From: Paenibacillus qinlingensis
GTDB taxonomy: Bacteria > Bacillota > Bacilli > Paenibacillales > NBRC-103111
Direction: 5' to 3'
Assembly: GCF_013204845.1 (NCBI RefSeq)
Contig: NZ_JABMKY010000001.1
Location: 434,001-498,000, forward strand
Length of the DNA stretch: 64,000 nt
The notes under the pieces were generated by a model. The model ran no database searches. It was given only the letters and a program-made list of their open reading frames with translations, and had not been told where the DNA came from. The position numbers were made by a program, and so were the translations under genes. Shown here one piece after another: positions 27,691 to 50,888 of this stretch; position 1 is the first letter of the stretch; each line of letters opens with the position of its first letter.

Positions 27691-27744
27691 GATTATAAAA
27701 TAAAATACCCACAAAGCCGAAGCCTTGCGGGTAACCGACTGAGT

Positions 27745-28160
27745 GGAAAGTTTGCCGTAAGCCGGGTTCTGTACTTCCAGTGGTCATAACGGGCGTCTGC
27801 TCCCCTGCCACTATTGAAGCGACAATCATCTATCTAGGCTGTACATTGCTGCACAGCTCAAGCGACCAACCCGAACGCGTCTCAGGCGAAGACTGCTGCC
27901 TCGAAAGCAGCTAGCGTTCCATTAGGTCTTGCTCCAAGTGGGGTTTACCAGGATCTATGTCACCATAGAACCTCGTGGTCTCTTACACCACGGTTCCACC
28001 CTTGCCTGTGCTATATTTCAAGCCATCGGCGGTCCATTTCTGTGGCCCTATCCTTCAACTCGCGTTGACTGGACGTTATCCAGCACCCTGCCTTATGAAG
28101 CCCGGACTTTCCTCTCGCTATGGCTTACCCATAGCCAGCGATTGTCTGTCAAACTTTCCA
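27745..28160 (-). ncRNA. rnpB: RNase P RNA, type B
   Basis: About 416 nt on the minus strand. Helix P1 forms from GGAAAGTTTG at the 5' end (near 28160) and CAAACTTTCC at the 3' end (near 27745). Diagnostic conserved segments are present: AGAGGAAAGTCCGGGCTTC in the 5' part (around 28100-28120, CR-I) and ACAGAACCCGGCTTA near the 3' end (27756-27771, CR-V). The overall organisation is that of the Bacillus class (type B) ribozyme, which removes 5' leaders from tRNA precursors. Exact ends are estimates to within a few bases. A consensus promoter lies directly upstream. Confidence 0.95.
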
Positions 28161-48902: not shown

Positions 48903-48931
48903 TAGACTGTAAGTCTATTTTTGCATATAAT
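48903..48931 (+). promoter_or_regulatory. Promoter with embedded palindrome 2, TetR-oxidoreductase gene
   Basis: TAGACT (48903-48908), 17 bp, TATAAT (48926-48931). The -35 is the left arm of the perfect inverted repeat TAGACT-GTA-AGTCTA (48903-48917), so a bound repressor would occlude RNA polymerase. Autoregulation by the encoded TetR domain is the simplest reading. Confidence 0.65.
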
Positions 48932-48965: not shown

Positions 48966-50888
48966 ATGAGTCAATTCATGAGAGCCTCGACCCGCAAAAA
49001 GCGTGATGTAATGATGGAAGTCGCTTTAACGATGTTCATGGAGAAAGGGTACGAAAATGTTTCTGTTGATGATATTATCGGGGAAACCAGCACCTCCAAA
49101 GGAACCTTCTATCATTATTTCAAAAGTAAAGATGCCATTATTTCAGCGTTATACAGCAAACAAACACAATTAATTCAGGAGTGGGTGAAACAACCCCCTT
49201 CGAAGGTACAATCGCTAGAAGGTCATATTAATCGTCTATTTTTAGACTTAGCGTCGAATATTCAAATGTCACCACGATTAATTCGAAGTTTGCAGGCACT
49301 TTCTTTACAAAATGATACGGTGAAATCAGAAGAACTTCAGCAATTGAAAGTCCTGACTCAAAGTTTAATGCACTGGCTCCCGGAGCCAAAAAAGATTGAT
49401 CTGCTCGTATGCATGTATACCGGAACGATCCTAACTTGGTGTAATCAAGATGATGCCGACCTGCTCTCCATGATGAAAAACAACTTAGCCTGGCTTTGGG
49501 TAGGTCTTCGTTCTGAAGAACCTTATGCATCGCTGCAGGTAGAACCCGTCCCCAAGGAGGAAAAGCGAATGAAAGTAGCCATTATCGGCGGAGGCTTAGC
49601 TGGTTTAACAGCAGCCGCGTATTTATCAGAAAACCCACACGTAGAAGGTATTCTATTTGAGCGCAGTCCACAGTTAGGAGGGCGAGCTTTTACGTACGAG
49701 AAAGCAGGTTTCACGCTTAACTACGGCGCGCACGCCATCTACGGAATTGACCGTCACACACTGACTACCATGGAACGCGAGCTAGGGCTATCCTTCTCGT
49801 CTAAACAAGTGGATAAACGCAAAGTCGTCTATGCGAAGCATAATCAACTTACGACTGCGCCGCTCGATGCCATTAACCTTCTCAAAACCGATTTGTTAAG
49901 CACGATTCAAAAAGTTCGCTTTGTAGGTGAAATTGCAGCCATTATCGCCAATATTCACAATATTAAGAACTACGCAACCTTGGCCGACTATCTTGCGGAA
50001 TCTAACGCGGATGAAGATGTTAAAGAGCTTTGGGAGCATTTGGTTTGTTCCAACTTTTTCATTACACCTGAGGATGCTCGTAACGTATCCGGTGCAGTGA
50101 TTAGCGAGTACTATCACAACTTATTCTTGTCTAGTAAACCTGTTAACTACGTCTTAGGCAGCTGGGCTGTTATCACCAATCAACTCAAACAAAAATTGAC
50201 CACTTCCGGCAAATGGGAAATCGCCTTACAGGAAGGTGTAGACGGACTTCGTTATGAGGATCGTAAATTTGTATTAAAAACGAAAACACGTGAAATGGCG
50301 TTTGATAAAGTGATCTTCGCAATGCCTGTACAACAAGTAGTGAAACTACTTAAAGGTTCGGCATGGGAGCCTTTCTTAGCACCGTATGAGTCCAACACAG
50401 CAACCGAAGTTATGGTTTATGACATTGGATTAAGCCGCGTCGTCGCTAGACCATTCAGTTACATCAGTGACATGGATAATAAACTATTCATCAGCGATGT
50501 TTCTGCAACAGACCATACACTAGTTCCAGAAGGTGGACAGTTGCTGCAAGGTATTGCTTACCTTAGTGATAAATTCGATAACGAAGAGGAACGCAAAGCT
50601 TATTTGGACAATAAAACCTCTCAAATGGAAGCCCTGTTCGATAGGCATTACCCAGGTTGGCGCGATGTTACTGCAGTTAAGCGTGTTTCGAAGAAGGCGA
50701 TGGTTTCCAGTGTGAAAAACATTGCGACCAACAGACTTTTGCCAACACGTGTAGAAAATATCCCATTCTACTTCTGTGGAGACGGATGTACAGGTAAAGG
50801 CGAGCTTGCTGAACGCGCATTTTCGAGTGCACGCAGCGCGGCATTGTCGATCGTTCAGGAAGTTGAACAAGCTTTACAGAACGTATAA
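48966..50888 (+). CDS. TetR-family regulator fused in frame to FAD-dependent phytoene-desaturase-like oxidoreductase
   Basis: 640 residues from ATG 48966 (GGAG, 7-base spacing; earlier in-frame codons fall inside the promoter). Residues 1-200 are a TetR regulator: helix-turn-helix in ENVSVDDIIGETSTSKGTFYHYFKSK-like sequence (about 27-55), then a ligand-binding helical domain. Residue 202 is the Met of MKVAIIGGGLAGLTAAAYL, the FAD dinucleotide motif. The next 438 residues form an amine-oxidase/phytoene-desaturase-type enzyme, closing with PFYFCGDGCTGKGELAERAF. No stop codon separates the parts, but AAGGAGG lies 8 bases before this internal ATG (49569). Either a fusion protein or both products may be made. 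The enzyme's substrate is unknown. Confidence 0.85.
   Translation: MSQFMRASTRKKRDVMMEVALTMFMEKGYENVSVDDIIGETSTSKGTFYHYFKSKDAIISALYSKQTQLIQEWVKQPPSKVQSLEGHINRLFLDLASNIQMSPRLIRSLQALSLQNDTVKSEELQQLKVLTQSLMHWLPEPKKIDLLVCMYTGTILTWCNQDDADLLSMMKNNLAWLWVGLRSEEPYASLQVEPVPKEEKRMKVAIIGGGLAGLTAAAYLSENPHVEGILFERSPQLGGRAFTYEKAGFTLNYGAHAIYGIDRHTLTTMERELGLSFSSKQVDKRKVVYAKHNQLTTAPLDAINLLKTDLLSTIQKVRFVGEIAAIIANIHNIKNYATLADYLAESNADEDVKELWEHLVCSNFFITPEDARNVSGAVISEYYHNLFLSSKPVNYVLGSWAVITNQLKQKLTTSGKWEIALQEGVDGLRYEDRKFVLKTKTREMAFDKVIFAMPVQQVVKLLKGSAWEPFLAPYESNTATEVMVYDIGLSRVVARPFSYISDMDNKLFISDVSATDHTLVPEGGQLLQGIAYLSDKFDNEEERKAYLDNKTSQMEALFDRHYPGWRDVTAVKRVSKKAMVSSVKNIATNRLLPTRVENIPFYFCGDGCTGKGELAERAFSSARSAALSIVQEVEQALQNV

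Follow-up and report, generated by a model that had tools for sequence, protein, structure and literature searches.

We describe a gene of the soil bacterium Paenibacillus qinlingensis that encodes, in one reading frame, a TetR repressor followed by an FAD oxidoreductase. The gene lies in a 64,000-nucleotide stretch of the 8.9 Mb genome, referred to here as the window. Comparison between genomes shows conservation of the fusion itself, of a start codon inside it, of a palindrome ahead of it and of the link between palindrome and fusion. The most probable reading is a flavoenzyme gene that represses itself and yields two nested proteins, a scarce repressor-enzyme and a more abundant free enzyme. 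Since the internal start and the repressor-like upstream site are both conserved, the enzyme probably controls its own production. We infer from this conservation that both products are made and that the gene is self-repressed; the fusion would presumably bind the palindrome and respond to a ligand, and the tethered enzyme might influence the repressor. The parts of the locus, in window coordinates, are as follows.

48966 to 50888, plus strand: fusion gene, 640 residues and a stop codon; translation free of internal stops, with in-frame homologues in relatives
48966 to 49517, plus strand: TetR half, residues 1-184, nine helices
49515 to 49568, plus strand: linker, residues 184-201; pLDDT below 50 at residues 184-198 and the lowest identity among the three parts
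49554 to 49560, plus strand: internal ribosome-binding site AAGGAGG, spacer of 8 to the ATG; conserved relative to the linker
49569 to 50888, plus strand: nested frame of the free enzyme, 439 residues and a stop codon; conserved start, predicted product
48903 to 48917, no strand assigned: candidate operator, palindrome TAGACTGTAAGTCTA; a perfect TAGAC-N5-GTCTA ahead of most fusion genes
48903 to 48931, plus strand: promoter-like pair TAGACT (48903-48908), 17 bases, TATAAT (48926-48931), from a consensus scan

A first-pass annotation of this DNA had proposed a single 640-residue frame holding a TetR protein and then a complete FAD oxidoreductase, and translation together with Pfam bears this out. 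In bacteria, TetR repressors belong to the most frequent regulators, usually as separate proteins. Here, TetR_N (PF00440) occupies residues 18-62 (50.8 bits against a cut-off of 24), and in the predicted structure the helix-turn-helix of TetR_N is followed by an all-helical ligand-binding part, as expected of the TetR family; the modelled half forms a nine-helix fold of 184 residues with a pLDDT of 89.2. The nearest TetR repressors are FadR and EthR, with FadR structures nearest by profile; the FadR family model NF053878 gave 31 bits, below its cut-off of 200. Amino_oxidase (PF01593) covers residues 211-626 (73.3 bits, cut-off 19.8), in agreement with the fold. Met202, encoded by the ATG at 49569, is the first residue of the oxidoreductase part, which is complete in the model of the whole fusion protein (pLDDT 82.9, pTM 0.64). 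The FAD-binding glycine motif and the C-terminal Gly-Asp pair of such enzymes are present: G208-G213, G238-A241 and G605-D606 are invariant across 15 sequences, and we take them to be the FAD-binding residues.

What the enzyme does is less readily read from its relatives. The label "phytoene-desaturase-like" given to it earlier holds for the fold, by structure comparison, but not for the family, the desaturase models scoring far below their cut-offs (TIGR02734, 28.6 against 238.1; TIGR02731, 29 against 569.4). The models for protoporphyrinogen oxidase (TIGR00562, 59.8 against 97.85) and HpnE (TIGR03467, 73.2 against 283.05) were not reached either, and among the 25 NCBIfam models listed of 59, none attained its cut-off. 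In a survey of 40 neighbourhoods, a HIT gene was found in 19 and a GH26 gene in 7; neither these nor the HEAT/Nfu_N genes point to a pathway. Two unfused enzymes from two families (L137 and L085) adjoin a HEAT-repeat/Nfu_N/"Virulence_fact" gene and a beta-lactamase-family gene, and a functional link of these neighbours to the enzyme is possible. Elsewhere in the window, a class A RNase P RNA lies at positions 27743-28157 of the minus strand (Rfam RF00010, 272 bits); many Bacilli have the class B RNA instead.

The same architecture recurs widely in other genomes, which disposes of the worry that relatives might all carry two separate genes: neither the same-genus nor the family genomes do so. 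Sixty of 99 genomes searched, the window's own included, have the fusion: all 29 other same-genus genomes, in frame and at 82-99% identity; 28 further genomes, in frame at 59-79%; and two (G062 and G070) at 31-32%. Within the window's family, 85 of 104 genomes carry it in frame. Sixteen of the remaining 19 gave no match at 1e-100, in two (G033 and G040) the enzyme is present without TetR, and one (G355) has a broken frame, so that 85 of the 86 family genomes possessing both halves hold them in one frame. A single TAA in the matched stretch of G058 falls at the C-terminal end, as judged by frame length. No match to the fusion was found on plasmids. In one same-genus genome the fusion is accompanied by a second enzyme gene that stands free (L066, 82% identity); genes of the NAD(P)H-binding and CMD families lie close to it.

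That a sequencing or assembly error merged two genes in the window is a reading we consider practically negligible, and we reject it because relatives carry the fusion in the same frame: Paenibacillus sp. Soil750 (99% identity, the nearest named relative among the matches listed), P. phytorum (92%) and P. chondroitinus (88%), as well as the family genomes counted above. Nothing in the window speaks for such an error, and G355 alone shows a frame break. There (L197:1175-3071), the operator, the TetR half and the enzyme half are kept and the internal start is intact, with the halves in different frames. The assembly is a single contig, 84% complete, and the break could be either a true split or a sequencing error.

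The internal start is the feature on which the prediction of a second product rests. The AAGGAGG stretch followed by 8 bases and the ATG at 49569, remarked upon in the first-pass annotation, is confirmed by reading the sequence. Among the 58 first-clade fusions read, 57 have Met202; the exception, L065, has Ile and is therefore not one of the 27 other-genus genes counted next. All 30 same-genus genes show a 7-base Shine-Dalgarno match at a spacer of 8. Among the 27 other-genus genes with the Met, 20 have a match of at least 6 bases and 26 the spacer of 8, which is thus kept in 56 of 57 genes overall. At other ATGs in any frame, matches of at least 6 bases occurred in 0 of 1177 cases in the same-genus genes and in 5 of 769 in the 27 others; the site at Met202 is beyond chance. 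In 35 genes from outside the genus (leaving out L065, and also L200, where the pattern did not match a motif), bases -15 to -9 are 80-100% conserved, compared with 30-66% for most linker bases between -30 and -1, the conserved exceptions being -29 (86%), -8 (80%), -23 (74%) and -7 (71%). The Lys-Glu pair at the junction is written AAG GAG in 48 of 52 cases and elsewhere in the same genes in 23 of 120, counts that add the same-genus and other-genus sets, the 30 same-genus genes being close relatives rather than independent cases. Resampling codons gene by gene gave no significance for the motif (p of 0.11 and 0.24 as mean or median); in four genes of one genus (L056, L058, L059 and L061) the motif was weaker than expected. 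By prediction, 50 of 58 genes have a stronger ribosome-binding site at the internal start than at any N-terminal one (medians -11.2 against -9.0 kcal/mol). A Shine-Dalgarno-type motif also precedes the same Met in free-standing orthologues, and in one fusion (L122) the motif lies in a different codon phase, with TTG as the start. The gene thus has the two in-frame starts, the inner one conserved along with its ribosome-binding site, that two products from one frame call for. L065 lost both the Met and the motif and kept the palindrome, so the free enzyme is evidently not indispensable.

The linker joining the halves drifts. It is modelled as floppy (pLDDT below 50 at 184-198), and outside the genus (n=28) identity to the window averages 52% in the TetR half, 33% in the linker and 78% in the enzyme. 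Its length varies by whole codons, from 17 to 30 residues, and is 20 residues in 51 of 58 genes. Over the last 20 linker codons, the used frame is free of stops in 57 of 57 genes (L065 left out), whereas the other two contain a stop in 40 and 26 of the 57. These patterns argue that the halves are held in frame across a linker that is otherwise free to change. The earlier suggestion that the cell makes both fusion and free enzyme from one gene gains support from comparative evidence: the internal start is conserved within a drifting linker and recurs in a second fusion (see below).

Ahead of the gene lies a palindrome that we take to resemble TetR operators in kind. Of 58 fusions, 56 have a perfect TAGAC-N5-GTCTA at a distance of 55 to 95 bases ahead of the gene; of the other two, L039 has one mismatch and L052 no palindrome. 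It is absent before all 5 free-standing orthologues. At named genomes, some of which are the same organisms as those numbered above, the palindrome was found at 19 of 19 fused and 0 of 8 free-standing loci. TAGACYNNNRGTCTA, the form with inner Y and R, is present in 84 of 85 fused family genomes and in 1 of the 19 others (G355), counts that refer to presence in the genome, with promoter position read at a subset of loci. Across the genomes compared, then, presence of the palindrome tracks that of the fusion. TAGACT, the first promoter-like hexamer, sits inside the candidate operator, and TATAAT-like bases lie at a constant distance from the palindrome in many relatives; the promoter scan is weak alone, with 6 sites against 4.3 expected from shuffles. 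In several genomes the palindrome is doubled, with the copies 23-24 bases apart.

By count alone the palindrome is unremarkable, and it is its position that matters. In 27 of 30 same-genus genomes TAGACYNNNRGTCTA occurs just once; read backwards as a control, the Y/R pattern occurs 42 times in the 30. Without the inner Y/R, TAGAC-N5-GTCTA occurs 98 times in these genomes, 1-7 times in each, against 182 for the backwards control, and some of these copies recur at set places. At least ten extra operator-like sites were seen, and none of the ten read is in a promoter position: six lie in one coding stretch that is presumably nadC-like, one in another open frame and three between convergent frames, two of these in terminator-like hairpins. 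For one of these six, at L190, the ORF assigned was on the opposite strand, but the bases around the site match. A second TAGAC-N5-GTCTA is found within the TetR coding part at 6 of the 19 named fused loci (L110, L115, L117, L122, L128 and L130), where it lies at about +266 to +278 counted from the beginning of the match, and also in several same-genus genomes; the window has none there. This intragenic copy may be a codon coincidence or an intragenic operator.

A second group of fusions (L071, L072 and L080) carries a TetR half unrelated to the first. With the first-clade model these halves score 59 bits, below at least 25 of 51 matching frames, themselves chosen by likeness to the query. In all three a Met is conserved at the junction, and the ribosome-binding site before it is strong (-10.3, -11.5 and -11.5 kcal/mol, respectively), outranking those of all other in-frame Mets (15, 14 and 11 Mets in total); the second-best site in L071 stands at -9.2 kcal/mol. 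Their internal Met lies 9-10 residues upstream. Their promoters share an element of their own, ATGACC-N20-RGTCAT, directly after TATAAT in 3 of 3 cases, which was not found at the free-standing relative L211. Since two of the three members are 85% identical, the group offers few independent cases. Fused enzymes form two well-separated groups in a tree of 70 enzymes, and the free-standing L066, L067, L070 and L068/L069 fall among the first group; this is a quick tree with SH-aLRT support only and a midpoint root, in which long branches meet. Taken together, the tree and the dissimilar TetR halves suggest that the fusion arose twice. A phylum search with the second-clade fusion matched 1 of 398 genomes, the window's own. 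Pfam gives no second fusion in the long frame of L101.

Free-standing enzymes have their own bearing on the history of the gene. Enzyme without TetR is common across Bacilli: at 1e-30 the enzyme was found in 65 of 250 genomes of the class, 63 unfused and 2 fused as judged by match extent. L067 and L070 are still next to the HIT gene found alongside many fusions, as would be expected had TetR been lost in place. The first-pass annotation had imagined an ancestral pair of genes fused by a single indel. The ATGA overlap it cited is present at the internal ATG, but carries little weight as a sign of such a pair, since it needs no more than a second codon starting with A. A search with an HMM trained on the TetR halves of the fusions (E 1e-3, ORFs of at least 60 codons), which a distant TetR could escape, detected no TetR-like gene next to 26 unfused enzymes of the class (flanks of about 1.5 kb, four cut by contig ends) or next to 5 closer ones (4 kb flanks). 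The supposed pair finds no support, and we reject the fusion as its relic because this search gave no TetR-like ORF beside the unfused enzymes read. In Thermoactinomyces sp. DSM 45892 (L144:2914-4718), the end of an unfused TetR gene and the beginning of an FAD_binding_3 enzyme gene overlap in an ATGA, and a RibD_C gene comes next. This TetR is the top-scoring unfused one with the first-clade model (102 bits); the locus is a TetR/flavoenzyme pair close to fusing, but its flavoenzyme is of a different family from the fused one.

Alternative readings of the locus can be weighed against these observations. One could suppose that only the full-length fusion matters and that the Shine-Dalgarno-like stretch starts nothing, slowing ribosomes at the boundary so that the TetR half can fold. 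Ribosome pausing at such motifs has been proposed, and the motif does lie at a domain boundary, ahead of the end of the disordered linker. Against it speak the fixed spacer to a conserved start codon, the TTG of L122, which can serve as a start, the motif that free-standing orthologues carry before the same Met and the joint loss of Met and motif in L065; we regard this reading as improbable. Still harder to credit is the notion that the internal start is an unused relic of a free-standing enzyme gene. The shared Met and ribosome-binding site of the free-standing orthologues are what it would predict; yet the motif persists, synonymous positions included, in a linker that has otherwise fallen to a third identity outside the genus.

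A stronger contender, though an unlikely one, holds that the covalent link is incidental: the gene would amount to a two-gene operon in one frame, with fusion serving translational coupling and the tethered enzyme taking no part in sensing. The faster evolution of the TetR half than of the enzyme, the existence of free-standing enzyme copies and the strength of the internal start, which makes free enzyme the predicted main product, all sit well with it. Against it stand the frame kept open across a drifting linker in the 57 genes tested, the near-universal union of the halves in family genomes that have both, and the two origins of the fusion.

The self-repressing gene with two nested products, which we prefer, could work as follows. 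A single transcript would issue from a promoter whose -35-like hexamer sits within TAGAC-N5-GTCTA. Translation from the first ATG would yield the repressor-enzyme, a TetR dimer bearing a flavoenzyme on each half through a flexible linker, and translation from the internal ATG, with its stronger ribosome-binding site, would yield free enzyme in excess. The fusion would bind the palindrome and repress its own gene, with perhaps few further targets. Filling of the TetR ligand pocket, most simply by the substrate or product of the enzyme, would lift repression, and more enzyme would be made until the ligand is consumed. The first-pass annotation went further in supposing that the DNA-binding part may directly sense the substrate or the redox state of the flavoprotein. 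It is conceivable, although we hold this somewhat less than evenly likely, that the design is a recurring one, Bacilli having at least twice joined unrelated TetR proteins to one flavoenzyme family. A strong internal start and a private operator would each time share the gene with them, which alone would then determine the feedback as well as how much free enzyme is made relative to repressor-enzyme. By virtue of carrying the enzyme, the repressor would then remove its own inducer at the promoter.

If this is true, the fusion, conserved and equipped with an operator and a built-in second start, would constitute a compact natural feedback circuit. As the inducer of the promoter is likely to be the substrate or product of the enzyme, the fusion also offers a handle on the substrate of a Bacilli-wide enzyme family, and it would be well suited to the question of whether a repressor senses differently once its enzyme is tethered to it. 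Since the second fusion carries another kind of TetR, it would seem to be the design, and not an accident, that needs explaining.

Among the matches listed from the open-licence literature without preprints there was no TetR-flavoenzyme fusion, which does not mean that none has been published; the sections of PMC13176608 consulted make no mention of fusions. The individual parts have familiar counterparts. The complete nine-helix fold with its ligand-binding part is shared with TetR repressors such as FadR and EthR, from which the present protein differs in being covalently joined to an enzyme. Among the matches listed, the PF01593 proteins phytoene desaturase (5mog), protoporphyrinogen oxidase and 3ka7 from M. 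mazei have about 14-19% identity to the enzyme half. Bacterial genes with two in-frame starts are known to give pairs of N-terminal proteoforms, according to the portion of PMC11005335 consulted. One frame, two starts and two products would be common to both, the products being predicted here; the short form of the fusion would lose an entire repressor, and the arrangement is found in two separate fusions. In its working, the closest known analogue appears to be trifunctional PutA (proline utilization A), described in the consulted part of PMC5293562 as a flavoenzyme whose N-terminal DNA-binding domain represses its own genes. Autogenous repression by a flavoenzyme would be common to the two, again as a prediction for the fusion. 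Their parts are unrelated: PutA combines a ribbon-helix-helix domain with proline/P5C dehydrogenase, the fusion a TetR with an amine-oxidase-type fold, and the Pfam scan of the fusion gave TetR_N, Amino_oxidase and Rossmann-type families only, with no PutA domains. An internal start that frees the enzyme goes unmentioned for PutA in that part of the source, whereas the fusion has a predicted one.
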